DNA of 64,000 nt from Acidimicrobiia bacterium (GTDB lineage Bacteria; Actinomycetota; Acidimicrobiia; Acidimicrobiales; Bin134). This document shows, in pieces, positions 11,946-18,933 of the stretch. The DNA lies in contig JAJDUJ010000026.1 in NCBI GenBank assembly GCA_022826705.1, forward strand, positions 1-64,000, in the 5' to 3' direction. Positions within the stretch are counted from its first letter, which is position 1. Each line of letters begins with the position of its first letter. The notes beneath the pieces were generated by a model that saw nothing but the letters and a program-made list of their open reading frames with translations, ran no database searches and was not told the origin of the DNA. A program made the position numbers and the translations under genes.

Positions 11946-12995
11946 TCAGGCTGCCGGTTCCCCCGACCGCATAAAGGGAAGCGGGAGGTTGGGATCGGCG
12001 ACGGTGTCCAGCGGGGAGGGACCGTCGAGCTGAAGTCGCTGCCAACCGGCGGCAGCCACCATGGCCGCGTTGTCGGTACACATGGAGCGGCTGGGCAAGA
12101 ACCCGCTGATGCCGGCGGCCACGCAGGCGTCCAGCAGTCGCTCTCGCAGCGAGGAGTTGGCCGCCACCCCGCCGGCCAGGCACAGGCCCTTGGCCTCGTA
12201 TTGCTCGGCAGCCTTGCGGGCTTTGTGGATCAGCACGTCTACCACCGCTTCCTGAAATGACGCCGCGATGTCGGGCACATCGAGGTCGGGGTTGTTTCGC
12301 ACGTGGTTGACCACTGCGGTCTTGAGGCCGCTGAACGAGAAGTCGTAACCGTCGTCGTACATGGGGCGGGGGAAAGCCACCGCCTCGGGATTGCCAGTCA
12401 TGGCCAGGCGGTCGATGACTGGGCCCCCGGGATAGCCCAAGTCCATGAAGCGGGCCACCTTGTCGAACGCCTCACCGGCGGCGTCGTCCAGAGTTTGGCC
12501 GATGAGCCGGTAGCGCCCGAAAGCCTCCATGAGCACCAGCAGGGTGTGGCCGCCGGAGACCAGCAGGACCACCACCGGCAGTTCCAGGTCGGGTTCCTCC
12601 AGGAAAGAGGAATAGAGATGGGCTTCCAGGTGGTTCACGGCCACGAACGGCACATCCCACACCAAGGCCAGCGACTTGGCTGCGCTCACTCCCACCAACA
12701 GCGAGCCGATAAGGCCGGGGCCGGCGGTAGCGGCCACCGCCTCCACATCGTGGTCGCTGAGACCGGCTTCGATCACCGCTTGGGCCACCACCGGGGTGAG
12801 CAGCTCCACATGGGCCCGACTGGCGATCTCCGGGACCACGCCGCCGTAGCGGGCGTGCAGATCCACTTGGCTGCTGATCACCGACGAAAGAACGGCGGAG
12901 GGGCCAGAGACCACGGCCGCCGCGGTTTCGTCACAAGAGGTCTCGATGCCCAAGACGATGGCGGGAGCTTCTTGAGGGGTTTCCAGAGCGGTCAT
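11946..12995 (-). CDS. tsaD: tRNA N6-threonylcarbamoyladenosine synthase subunit TsaD
   Basis: Transfers threonylcarbamoyl to A37 of ANN-reading tRNAs together with TsaB and TsaE. The 349-residue ASKHA-fold protein has [14 protein letters not shown] near the N-terminus, the metal-binding VNHLEAH motif, LLVSGGHT, and [10 protein letters not shown] near the C-terminus. The ATG at 12995 overlaps the rimI stop by four bases. It is the last gene of the tsaE-tsaB-rimI-tsaD run, just before groES. Confidence 0.97.
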
Positions 12996-13513
12996 GCGCA
13001 GTCCAGTTCTACCGCGATCTTGATGAGACGGTCGGCATAGTCGGGTTGTTGGATGTTGTCGGCCCGCATCACCACGGCGTCGGGAGACAGCCCCATGTTC
13101 TTGTAATACCCCCGCTGAATACCCACCGGGGCGAGGCCGAAGCGCCGGTAGAGGGCCTGGGCGGCGGGATTGTCGGCGGACACCTCCAAAGCGAGGCTGG
13201 TATTGCGGCGGCAGGCGGCCAACGCCAATGCCAAAAACAGCCGGGCGCCGATGCCCTGACCGCGGCAATCGGGGGACACCGTGACCGTGGTGATGTGGGC
13301 TTCGTTTTCCTCGAAGGCCACCCCAGCGTGGCCCACCAATTGACCGGGGCGGGCGATCACATAGAGCCGATCCTCGGGGCGGGCCAACTCAGCCTCGTAG
13401 ACATCCCGGGACCAGGGAATGGGGTAGCACTGGGCGTCGATGGCCATGACCTGTGGCAGGTGATCGGAGGTCATGGGAACGATCATCTGATCAAGAGTCA
13501 TGGGAAGGCTCAT
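12992..13513 (-). CDS. rimI: Ribosomal-protein-alanine N-acetyltransferase RimI-like
   Basis: A 173-residue GNAT acetyltransferase. The acetyl-CoA loop is seen in VSPDCRGQGIGARLF (R/Q-x-x-G-x-G/A), and LEVSADNPAAQALYRRFGL is the standard C-terminal motif. Its position between tsaB and tsaD is the conserved place of rimI, which acetylates the N-terminus of ribosomal protein S18. Both flanking overlaps are ATGA. Confidence 0.92.
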   Translation of the reverse strand: MSLPMTLDQMIVPMTSDHLPQVMAIDAQCYPIPWSRDVYEAELARPEDRLYVIARPGQLVGHAGVAFEENEAHITTVTVSPDCRGQGIGARLFLALALAACRRNTSLALEVSADNPAAQALYRRFGLAPVGIQRGYYKNMGLSPDAVVMRADNIQQPDYADRLIKIAVELDCA

Positions 13514-15450: not shown

Positions 15451-16578
15451 ATGATCGACTGGCTCGGCATCGACCATCTGTTCAAGTTGTCCGGCGGCGA
15501 GGTGGTGCTGGGATTCCTCACGCCCCTGTTCGTCTGCGCCGCGGTCTTCGTGGCGCACATGGTCCTGCCCGCGAGGCGCGTGCCTGGCTACGCCATCAAC
15601 CGCAAGACCGGCGAGCCCCTCAACTACCGGCTCAACGGATTGGCGGTGTTCGTGCTTGCCCACCTCGTGTGGGCATTCGCGCTGCCGCGCGACTGGTTCT
15701 ACCGGTCGACCATGTATGCGATAGCGAGCGGCTTCGTGATCGCGATCATCGCGACGATCTTCGTGGTGTTCTCCCAGCCCGAAGGCGCACAGAAGAACCG
15801 CTTGCTTGCGTTCTATCTCGGCCGTGCCCAAGAGCTGCAATTCTTCAACAACCGCTTCGATCTCAAGATGTACTTCTACATCGTGGGCGGCACGATGCTG
15901 TCGCTCAATTGTTGGTCCGCAGCCGCATGGCACAACGACAACGTTGCCGATGCCAACCCCGGCTTGTTCCTCTACGCCGCCATCAATTGCTTCTACATCT
16001 TCGACTACTTCGTCTGGGAACGGGTGCAGCTCTACACCTACGACCTCACCTACGAGAAGATCGGATTAAAGCTCGTCTGGGGCGGGCCGTTTGTGTGGGG
16101 TTGGATGTTCGTGCTGCCGTTGTGGGGCTTGGCGCCACTCTCCGACCCCGGTATCTCCGGCGGCGGGAGATACTTCTGGCTGATCGGCAGCGCCGCACTG
16201 TTCTTCGTGGGCTGGACGATTTCTCGCGGCTCCAACATGCAGAAGTACACGTTCAAGCGCTGGCCCGAACGCACGTTCCTCGGCATCATCGAGCCGGAGT
16301 ACATCCAAGCCGGCGACCGCAAGATTCTGTGCAGCGGGTTCTGGGGGAAAGCACGCCACTTCGGCTATTTCGGCGAAGGTCTGTACGGGATTGCCGTGGC
16401 GCTGACCTTTGGGCACTTCGGCAACCTGTGGGCTTGGACATACGTGATTTTCATCGTTGCGTTCTTCGTTCCCCGCCAGTTCGAGGACGACAAGGTCTGC
16501 GCCGAGAAGTACGGCGAAGAGAAGTGGGCCGAATACCAGGCTCGAGTTCCGTACCGGATCATCCCCGGCATCTTCTAG
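15451..16578 (+). CDS. ERG4/ERG24 family membrane protein (sterol-reductase-like), copy 1
   Basis: A 375-residue integral membrane protein with about ten hydrophobic segments. Motifs of the sterol C14/C24/C7 reductase family are visible: PGYAIN and LNYRLNG (45-63), GRAQELQFFNNRFDLKM (124-140; family G-R-E-L-N-P-R and F-D-L-K), QKYTFKR (264-270; family Q-K-x-x-F-R), GFWGKARHFGYFGE (296-309; family G-W-W-G-x-x-R-H/K-P-N-Y) and DDKVCAEKYGEEKWAEY then VPYRIIPGIF at the C-terminus. These surround NADPH in the known Methylomicrobium enzyme. Copy 1 has G in place of the conserved N of R-H-x-N-Y. ATG at 15451 follows AGGAGG. First of three tandem paralogs and the most divergent. Catalysis on a sterol is not shown. 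Confidence 0.85.
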   Translation: MIDWLGIDHLFKLSGGEVVLGFLTPLFVCAAVFVAHMVLPARRVPGYAINRKTGEPLNYRLNGLAVFVLAHLVWAFALPRDWFYRSTMYAIASGFVIAIIATIFVVFSQPEGAQKNRLLAFYLGRAQELQFFNNRFDLKMYFYIVGGTMLSLNCWSAAAWHNDNVADANPGLFLYAAINCFYIFDYFVWERVQLYTYDLTYEKIGLKLVWGGPFVWGWMFVLPLWGLAPLSDPGISGGGRYFWLIGSAALFFVGWTISRGSNMQKYTFKRWPERTFLGIIEPEYIQAGDRKILCSGFWGKARHFGYFGEGLYGIAVALTFGHFGNLWAWTYVIFIVAFFVPRQFEDDKVCAEKYGEEKWAEYQARVPYRIIPGIF

Positions 16579-16617
16579 CGCCGACCGGCTGAAGCGGTAC
16601 CGGAGAGGAGGCCACCG

Positions 16618-17754
16618 ATGTTCGAGCAACTCGGTGTCGGACACCTGACTGAGTTGACTGCGGGCGAGGCGGTGCTGGGGTTCCTCACGCCGCTGATCAT
16701 GATGGTCGCCTTCGTCGTGCTCCAGATGATCCTGCCCGGCAGGCGCGTGACCGGCTACGTCATCGACGCGGCCACCGGCCAGCCCCGCAGCTACCGCCTC
16801 AACGGCCTGCTGGTGTTCGCAGCGGCCCAGCTTCTGTGGTGGTTCGAGCTCACCGGCATGCCGCGCGACTGGTTCTACCGGTCATCGCTGTACGCCGTGG
16901 CCGGCGGAACGGTGCTCGCCGTCATCCTGACCGCGATAGCGGTGTTCACCCAGCCCGAAGGCGAGGTCAAGAACCGTTTGCTTGCCTTGTGGTTCGGGCG
17001 GGCCCCCGAGATGCAGTTCTTCAACGGCCGTCTCGACCTCAAGATGTACTTCTACGTGGTCGGCGGAACCATGCTGTCGCTCAACGCGTGGTCCGGCGCA
17101 GTGTGGCACCACGAGAACATTGCAGACCTCAATCCAGGCGTCTTCTTGTTCGCAGCGTTCGTCACCTTCTACGTGTTCGACTACTACATCTTCGAGCGGA
17201 CGATGCTCTACACGTACGACATCATTCACGAACGGCTCGGCTTCAAGCTGTTCTGGGGCGGGCTCTTCGTCTACGGCTGGGTGTTCATCATTCCGATGTG
17301 GGGTTTGGCGGCTCATCCCGACCCAGGACTCTCAGGCGGCTGGCGTGTGCTGTGGCTGATCGGTGCGCCTGCGCTGTACGCCGCCGGATGGGTCATCACC
17401 CGCGGCGCCAGCTTGCAGAAGTACACGTTCAAGCGCTGGCCCGACCGCACGTTCCTCGGGGTGTTCGCGCCGCAGGTCATCGAGGCTGGCGACCGCAAGA
17501 TCCTGTGCAGCGGCTTCTGGGGCGCCGCCCGGCATTTCAACTACATGGGCGAGTGGTGCTTCGGTCTCGCCATCGCCCTGGTCTGGGGTCATTTCGGCAA
17601 CCTGTGGGCATGGATCTACTTCGTCTACGTCATTGCGTTGTTCCTCCTCCGCCAGAGTCAGGACGACCGGCACTGCGCCAACAAGTACGGCCCCGAGAAG
17701 TGGGCCGAGTACCGGCAGCGAGTCCCCTATCGGATCGTCCCGGGCATCTACTAG
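16618..17754 (+). CDS. ERG4/ERG24 family membrane protein (sterol-reductase-like), copy 2
   Basis: A 378-residue paralog with the same segment pattern as its neighbours. It keeps YRLNG, GRAPEMQFFNGRLDLKM, QKYTFKRWPDR, GFWGAARHFNYMGE (the conserved N-Y is present) and a C-terminus DDRHCANKYGPEKWAEY, VPYRIVPGIY. By eye it is much closer to copy 3 than to copy 1. SD GGAGAGGAGG precedes the ATG and the gap to copy 1 is 39 bases, so the trio is probably one transcript. The aspartate pair before C-x2-K-Y-G is present, but the family HR-x-x-R-D has become R-Q-S-Q-D-D. Confidence 0.85.
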   Translation: MFEQLGVGHLTELTAGEAVLGFLTPLIMMVAFVVLQMILPGRRVTGYVIDAATGQPRSYRLNGLLVFAAAQLLWWFELTGMPRDWFYRSSLYAVAGGTVLAVILTAIAVFTQPEGEVKNRLLALWFGRAPEMQFFNGRLDLKMYFYVVGGTMLSLNAWSGAVWHHENIADLNPGVFLFAAFVTFYVFDYYIFERTMLYTYDIIHERLGFKLFWGGLFVYGWVFIIPMWGLAAHPDPGLSGGWRVLWLIGAPALYAAGWVITRGASLQKYTFKRWPDRTFLGVFAPQVIEAGDRKILCSGFWGAARHFNYMGEWCFGLAIALVWGHFGNLWAWIYFVYVIALFLLRQSQDDRHCANKYGPEKWAEYRQRVPYRIVPGIY

Positions 17755-17793
17755 CCTCGCTCCGCCGATTCTGTGGTGGAAGGGAGGTCGCCC

Positions 17794-18933
17794 ATGTTCG
17801 ACCGGCTCGGCATCGGGCACCTGACGGAGCTGACTGCGGGAGAGGCGCTGCTGGGCTTTCTCACGCCGCTGTTCGTGATGGCCGCGCTCTTTGTGCTGCA
17901 TATGGTCCTGCCCGGCCGTCGTGTCCCCGGCTACGTAGTCAACGCGGCCACGGGCCAGCCCCGCAGCTACCGCCTCAACGGGCTGCTGGTGTTCGCCGTG
18001 GCCCAAGTGTTGTGGTGGTTCGAGCTCACGGGCATGCCGCGGGACTGGTTCTACCGGTCGTCGCTGTACGCCTCCGCAGGCGGAACGGTTCTCGCCGTCA
18101 TCCTGACCCTCATCGCGGTCTTCAGCCAGCCTCCCGGAGAGGTGAAGAACCCGTTCCTGGCCTGGTGGTTCGGGCGCACGCAAGAGCTTCAGTTCTTCAA
18201 CAGCCGCTTCGACCTCAAGATGTTCTCCTATGTGGTCGGCGGCACGATGCTGTCGCTCAATGCCTTGTCCGGCGCGGTGTGGCACTACGAGAACGTCGCA
18301 GACCTCAACCCGGGCGTCTTCACGTTCGCGGCGTTCGTCTCCACCTTTTATGTCCTCAACTACTTTGTGGTCGAGCGGTCCCAGCTCTACACCTACGACG
18401 TCATCCACGAGCGCATGGGTTTCAAGATCATCTGGGGCGGGTTCATCGTCTTCGGCTGGGGGTTCATCATTCCGATGTGGGGTTTGGCGGCTCATTCCGA
18501 CCCGGGGTTCTCAGGCGGATGGCGGGTGCTGTGGCTGATCGGGGCGCCTGCCCTGTACTTCGCAGGGTGGTGCTTCCATTTTGGTGCCAACATGCAGAAG
18601 TACACGTTCAAGCGCTGGCCCGACCGCAAGTTCCTCGGCCTCATCGAACCGAAGTTCATTGAGGCTGGCGATCGCAAGATCCTGCACAGCGGATTCTGGG
18701 GTGCCGCCCGGCATTGCAACTACATGGGCGAATTGTGCTTTGGCCTCGCCATCGCCCTGATGTGGGGCTATTTCGACAACCTGTGGGCATGGATGTACCT
18801 CGTCCACGTCATCGTGTTGTTCCCCCTCCGCCAGAGGCAGGACGACCGGCACTGCGCCGACAAGTACGGCCCCGACAAGTGGGCCGAGTACCGGCAGCGA
18901 GTTCCCTACCGGATCGTTCCCGGCATCTACTGA
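17794..18933 (+). CDS. ERG4/ERG24 family membrane protein (sterol-reductase-like), copy 3
   Basis: A 379-residue paralog. ATG at 17794 (MFDRLGIGHLTELTAGEALLGF) follows GGAAGGGAGG and aligns with the starts of copies 1 and 2; an upstream ATG at 17773 would add seven residues not found in the others. Motifs: YRLNG, GRTQELQFFNSRFDLKM, QKYTFKRWPDRKF, GFWGAARHCNYMGE, DDRHCADKYGPDKWAEY, VPYRIVPGIY. It differs from copy 2 in the strand H-F/C-N-Y and in KILHSG versus KILCSG. The gap to copy 2 is 39 bases, the same as between copies 1 and 2. Confidence 0.85.
   Translation: MFDRLGIGHLTELTAGEALLGFLTPLFVMAALFVLHMVLPGRRVPGYVVNAATGQPRSYRLNGLLVFAVAQVLWWFELTGMPRDWFYRSSLYASAGGTVLAVILTLIAVFSQPPGEVKNPFLAWWFGRTQELQFFNSRFDLKMFSYVVGGTMLSLNALSGAVWHYENVADLNPGVFTFAAFVSTFYVLNYFVVERSQLYTYDVIHERMGFKIIWGGFIVFGWGFIIPMWGLAAHSDPGFSGGWRVLWLIGAPALYFAGWCFHFGANMQKYTFKRWPDRKFLGLIEPKFIEAGDRKILHSGFWGAARHCNYMGELCFGLAIALMWGYFDNLWAWMYLVHVIVLFPLRQRQDDRHCADKYGPDKWAEYRQRVPYRIVPGIY

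Follow-up and report, generated by a model that had tools for sequence, protein, structure and literature searches.

Membrane sterol reductases of the ERG4/ERG24 family take up NADPH from the cytosol and the sterol from the membrane, and a tyrosine together with the hydride reduces a C=C bond (PMC12489058, PMC7591894). The bacterial delta14-sterol reductase MaSR1 (PDB 4quv) is encoded by a single gene in a sterol-making methanotroph, Methylotuvimicrobium alcaliphilum. Host-associated bacteria also have members of the family, with host sterols as proposed substrates: the intracellular bacteria Legionella drancourtii, Protochlamydia and Coxiella have a single gene for a sterol delta-7 reductase, which has been described as DHCR7 of the plant type (PMC2667531), and sterol reductases are reported from sponge chlamydiae (PMC9666466). 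In Ircinia symbionts, steroid gene clusters (CSGs) contain ERG24, CYP51 and lanosterol synthase (Kelly et al. 2022, PMC9531527), and an enrichment of ERG24 and of sterol C-24 methyltransferases (SMTs) with horizontal transfer has been published for these symbionts. SMTs of sponge symbionts are likewise sterol-modifying enzymes; the study by Brown et al. (2023, PMC10070321) assays methylation, with products that retain a side-chain double bond, and in the text searched names no reductase partner. Here, we describe three tandem ERG4/ERG24-family genes in a 64,000-nucleotide stretch of DNA (the window) from the metagenome-assembled genome (MAG) of an Acidimicrobiia bacterium. The triplet probably encodes NADPH-dependent sterol reductases. 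These would belong to a module that has spread by horizontal transfer and tailors exogenous sterols.

A sequence-only reading of the window saw three adjacent genes of 375, 378 and 379 codons, each with its own Shine-Dalgarno sequence and separated by equal gaps of 39 bases, and this is borne out by the coordinates (Table 1). Each copy starts with ATG downstream of a Shine-Dalgarno-like stretch and all frames are intact. The ratio of nonsynonymous to synonymous substitution rates (dN/dS) was about 0.13-0.34 in the comparisons run, with copy 1 against copy 2 (0.40) as the exception, and of the 19 tandem pairs in the genus, 18 have a gap of the same length, 39 bases. Because of the open frames, the low dN/dS and the recurring gap, the triplet is confirmed as a set of real tandem genes and not a product of chance. 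The predicted proteins are confirmed as full-length members of the ERG4/ERG24 family: they match PF01222 with 123.9, 133.2 and 118.9 bits (copies 1, 2 and 3; curated cut-off 27 bits) over positions 78-432 of the 432 of the profile. The assignment to this family made earlier thus stands, with E values of 1e-34 to 1e-38. The competing families that had been named, isoprenylcysteine methyltransferases (ICMT) and 5-alpha-reductases, match far less well, DUF1295 reaching 18.6-21.2 bits and ICMT 13.5 bits as against more than 118 bits for PF01222.

The fold leads to the same assignment. The AlphaFold2 model of copy 2 (mean pLDDT 90.4) has MaSR1 as its sole strong solved match in Foldseek (E 1e-16, TM 0.77-0.79, 28% identity), whereas 5-alpha-reductase and ICMT structures reach E values of only about 0.02. 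Among solved structures, MaSR1 also ranks first in the sequence search (E 2e-32) and in the profile search (E 2e-73); in the profile search of the PDB for subfamily typing no DHCR7 or ERG4 structure was matched, and the triplet is likened to the DHCR7-type enzyme of the intracellular bacteria at the family level only. At about 28% identity, the triplet proteins have the fold of MaSR1, its catalytic Tyr and Asp and the greater part of its NADPH pocket. MaSR1 Y241, D257, K319, W352, R356, H357, R395, D399, C403, Y407 and Y414 are kept in all three copies. The catalytic Tyr and Asp (MaSR1 Y241, D399) are present in all 116 proteins examined of the clade to which the triplet belongs, and the Lys, Trp, Arg and Tyr residues of the NADPH pocket are invariant across it; at the position of MaSR1 R323 there is a Lys throughout the clade, copy 2 included. 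In contrast to MaSR1, the N-terminus is shorter and Asn359, an NADPH contact, is replaced in copy 1 by Gly (Gly305), as in 20 of 22 copy-1 proteins; copies 2 and 3 keep the Asn. The human counterpart of this residue is LBR N547, and its change to Asp abolishes NADPH affinity (PMC4951196). It is probable that copies 1 and 2 have come to prefer different cofactors or substrates. In copy 3, two sites that are otherwise invariant in the clade are changed (MaSR1 D244 to N, R313 to F) and one residue is inserted; it may therefore be diverging or decaying, yet its dN/dS against copy 2 is 0.26.

Copies 2 and 3 had been judged more alike than either is to copy 1, which holds, since they are 79% identical as compared to 62% for copy 1 against either; at least two duplication steps, as proposed, are supported. 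The reductase gene is carried by 15 of the 22 genomes of the genus and is missing from all 19 genomes that represent other families of the order. A typical carrier in the genus has the pair of copy 1 and copy 2, five carriers have just one copy, which is more distant, and the third tandem copy was encountered only in the window among the genus genomes compared. The expectation that bacteria usually hold a single copy has to be given up here, as a tandem pair is the rule both in the genus and in Chloroflexota, whose own pair arose independently of the genus pair according to the tree. In a close relative (L022) copies 1 and 2 are 99% identical to those of the window and copy 3 is absent. Its copy 2 agrees with copy 2 of the window at 181 of 186 diagnostic sites, yet runs into the flank that follows copy 3 in the window, so that, as judged from these sites and the flank, the two genomes are one clean gene-length insertion or deletion apart. 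In the tree copy 3 is not nested among the copy-2 genes of its own sublineage but branches off outside them (support 98), which favors an older duplication that was lost elsewhere or an import from an unsampled relative. The genes for a P1 peptidase and a short-chain dehydrogenase (SDR) directly downstream had been suggested as functional partners. They follow the reductase genes in the sublineage of the window only; elsewhere in the clade the pairs have unrelated neighbors, and a shared operon was rejected.

A scan with one genome per species gave 154 relatives, of which the best 80 were taken as named loci; these come from Acidimicrobiia, Chloroflexota, Gemmatimonadota, Nitrospirota, Nitrospinota, Binatota, Acidobacteriota, Pseudomonadota, Myxococcota, Dadabacteria and Latescibacterota. 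The clade thus spans at least ten phyla, mostly as sponge-type MAGs. Its sponge specificity is likely, judged by the isolate names of about one third of the relatives, whose prefixes (e.g. APA, COS, RHO, IRC) fit the sponge species of PMC8163846. Elsewhere in Actinomycetota full-length PF01222 genes are rare (found in 4 of another 395 genomes, with one of the four matches being partial), and in Chloroflexota the distribution is nearly all-or-nothing: 26 of 400 genomes have a match at 61-67% identity, and otherwise there is a single match at 35%. In the tree the phyla are partly mixed, with 20 label changes against a minimum of 10, a count that is also inflated by binning errors and paralogues. 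This is consistent with a spread of the clade by horizontal transfer. A viral origin was rejected, as there was no significant match in the BFVD fold search, and so was a plasmid origin, for which the plasmid search gave only one Planktothrix protein, 28% identical.

The most constant partner of the reductase is an SMT. The window's genome has two (Sterol_MT_C 78.7 and 59.9 bits; cut-off 21.7 bits), one of them on the window's contig; their genes are at G000:C19:172049-173005 and G000:C1:38046-38987. A further contig (C23) encodes a fusion of a GPP34 domain with a cytochrome P450, a flavin amine-oxidase-like protein and a KshA-type Rieske protein. Together with the reductases these would form a sterol-tailoring module, spread over three contigs. 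Within the genus, 13 of 15 reductase carriers and none of seven non-carriers have an SMT, and the same counts apply to the flavin oxidase (p 2e-4 for both). Among 400 Chloroflexota genomes, the 26 carriers include 24 with an SMT (p 4e-35) and 23 with the flavin oxidase (p 4e-33), as compared to one genome in either case among the 374 others; all these p values are from Fisher tests that ignore phylogeny and habitat. More weight is given to the physical clustering seen in several phyla. At 10 of the 80 named loci (from Chloroflexota, Dadabacteria and Gemmatimonadota) the reductase has in its flanks a gene for an SMT, a flavin oxidase, a GPP34-P450 fusion or, in Chloroflexota alone, a Rieske protein. 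Genes of this set are also found next to CSG operons in Nitrospira and Binatia genomes.

Table 1 Position of the reductase triplet in the window and of two module genes on contig C23 of the same genome.
Feature	Position	Strand	Length	Remarks
Copy 1, ERG4/ERG24-family membrane sterol reductase	15451..16578	+	375 aa	PF01222 E 9.8e-36; Gly305 at the MaSR1 N359 site
Gap between copies 1 and 2	16579..16617	+	39 bases	Shine-Dalgarno-like GGAGAGGAGG
Copy 2, sterol reductase	16618..17754	+	378 aa	PF01222 E 1.5e-38; all checked catalytic and NADPH-pocket residues kept, except R323, which is Lys
Gap between copies 2 and 3	17755..17793	+	39 bases	Shine-Dalgarno-like GGAAGGGAGG
Copy 3, sterol reductase, diverged copy-2 type	17794..18933	+	379 aa	PF01222 E 3.1e-34
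GPP34 (GOLPH3-like)-cytochrome P450 fusion	L177:3836-5869 (G000:C23)		677 aa	
Flavin amine-oxidase-like protein	L177:5877-7265 (G000:C23)			

Breakdown of steroids would be another use for such a gene set. The reductases could saturate unusual double bonds of sponge sterols ahead of a 9,10-seco-type degradation with Rieske oxygenases and P450s. The window's genome has three KshA_C-matching genes and several P450s, sponges are enriched in steroid degradation genes, and some sponge KshA cluster apart (PMC5790920). However, the reductase is linked to SMT, whose activity is anabolic and not required for degradation, and the Rieske protein of the module reaches only about 80 bits as compared to 126-142 bits for the best KshA-like proteins of the other genomes searched. 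A role in catabolism is thus regarded as unlikely.

Sterol synthesis from squalene was not found. There is no match to squalene epoxidase in the window's genome or in the 21 other genomes of the genus, and no match of the oxidosqualene cyclase (OSC) type in the window's genome. The statement of the sequence-only reading that other sterol-pathway genes are missing from the window can therefore be extended to the whole genome for these two enzymes, but not to sterol genes in general, given the two SMTs. The only cyclase is of the hopene type (DLDDTA motif) and lies within a hopanoid-like cluster; the organism would make hopanoids and seems to be a bacterium of the sponge-symbiont type that is unable to make sterols itself. 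The cluster, and the varied lipids used by membrane reductases of related fold, would speak for hopanoids, carotenoids or other non-sterol polyprenoids as substrates. Squalene-hopene cyclase, though, is present in 21 of 22 genus members whether they carry the reductase or not, whereas SMT does track the reductase. For this reason hopanoids are unlikely, and reduction of any non-sterol polyprenoid is considered very improbable. Of the substrates proposed earlier, imported sterols are the likely ones.

Some relatives do have a cyclase. Among 48 genomes with a clade reductase, an OSC-type cyclase was found in 11 and none was matched in 37, the latter being an upper bound because the sterol operon in one of them (L094) runs off its contig; the type was assigned by score and length, and the DCTAE motif is present in nine examples that were read. 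The clade enzymes might then reduce the ring at C-14 (ERG24) or C-7 (DHCR7) and so complete sterol intermediates. These could be the organism's own, in relatives with a cyclase, or be released by sterol-making neighbors, with the pathway split across the microbiome. This fits with a delta14-sterol reductase as best solved match, with the OSC-type cyclase in 11 of the 48 genomes, with L094, in which the clade reductase adjoins the start of the sterol operon, and with two Acidimicrobiia cyclase regions (L185, L188), in which an operon-type ERG24 was not seen. On the other hand, intact operons bring their own ERG24, found beside the cyclase in seven of the ten cyclase regions from clade-reductase genomes; it is only about 33% identical to the present clade and forms a separate clade in the tree. 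Moreover, 37 of the 48 genomes and the window's genome are without an OSC-type match, and a C-14 reductase in the latter would have neither a detectable OSC nor a squalene epoxidase to supply its delta8,14 precursor. Ring reduction is therefore seen as quite unlikely.

The published CSG enzymes and the present clade belong to the same Pfam family, occur in sponge symbionts of many phyla and show evidence of transfer, and doublets are mentioned for the CSG ERG24. The latter, however, has a P450 and an epoxidase-cyclase fusion as operon partners, whereas the present reductases mostly stand alone or next to an SMT, the majority of them in genomes that have no OSC-type cyclase. Genes of the ERG24-CYP51-LSS type were found neither beside the triplet nor near the other loci, L094 excepted. 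Membership in the CSG operon was thus rejected.

Altogether, the explanation we favor is that the triplet proteins tailor exogenous sterols. They would be integral membrane proteins of the MaSR1/ERG24 fold whose substrates are not made by the bacterium but acquired from the sponge or from sterol-making neighbors. The sterol would enter the pocket facing the membrane and NADPH would bind from the cytosolic side; the conserved Tyr would protonate and NADPH donate the hydride to a C=C bond. Which bond that would be is suggested by the company of the gene. As SMT is the most constant partner and sterol synthesis was not detected, reduction of the side chain of an acquired sterol is the simplest reading, and saturation of the double bond left by SMT is, tentatively, the likeliest single reaction. 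In yeast, ERG4 acts after ERG6. It is tempting to go one step further, in a proposal more doubtful still: sponge symbionts of many phyla that make no sterols of their own may share a mobile module of SMT and reductase, which alkylates acquired sterols at C-24 and then saturates the side chain to give finished 24-alkyl sterols, the tandem copies splitting the work by substrate or cofactor. Several points weigh against the tailoring of exogenous sterols. The genome is a MAG of 95% completeness, so that the missing epoxidase and cyclase are no proof. The co-occurrence may stem in part from the common sponge habitat and from shared ancestry, the module genes of the window's genome lie away from the triplet, and most of the 80 named loci are without a sterol gene in the flanks examined. 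Finally, the Rieske and P450 genes could equally serve steroid breakdown.

Inspection of the module and CSG genes gave some further observations. The flavin amine-oxidase-like protein is 75-82% identical across phyla as compared to 61-67% for the reductase; because it is so much better conserved, a more recent transfer or a stronger constraint is suggested. An in-frame TAG in the Chloroflexota gene was rejected as a peculiarity, since it is the regular stop codon, lying shortly ahead of where the query match ends. Homologues of the GPP34-P450 fusion are near the reductase in L078, L081, L087, L091, L096, L097 and L100, and are conserved across several phyla of the symbiont set. Another genome of the genus (G016) has a tandem SMT pair (L217:8681-10752 and 12293-13123) with a DUF1295 steroid-reductase-like gene 1.5 kb off. 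The 'lanosterol synthase' encoded in the steroid gene clusters of sponge symbionts is a fusion of an N-terminal squalene-epoxidase-like FAD monooxygenase with an OSC carrying DCTAE, of about 1100-1280 aa (L183:4415-8224, L180:6878-10231, L188:7327-10677, and six more in L181, L182 and L184-L187). The 'hypothetical protein' and 'dihydroflavonol-4-reductase' that flank the CSG ERG24 (L183:10104-12343 and homologues) are a Rieske oxygenase and an SdmB-like protein, the latter with 305.6 bits to NF052578, below the cut-off of 600 bits; CSG operons therefore likely carry a bacterial-type C-4 demethylation pair.

In summary, the enzyme family is known, but the clade is distinct, its setting unexpected and the gene association strong. 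What is added to published work is the separate clade, its linkage to SMT and the lack of detected sterol synthesis; our literature search found no description of the clade as separate, of its SMT linkage, of the tandem pairs in detail or of the Asn-to-Gly change. It is debated whether the sterols of sponges, and the steranes of ancient rocks, come from the animal or from its bacteria. An SMT-linked reductase clade in symbionts without detected sterol synthesis points to a division of labor in which some symbionts make sterols de novo and more may remodel them, and suggests that symbionts remodel sterols made by the sponge or by its other microbes. If the module of SMT and reductase is real, the reductase would be the missing last step to saturated bacterial 24-ethyl or 24-isopropyl sterols, which serve as sponge biomarkers in ancient rocks. 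Named genes are now at hand for a direct test.

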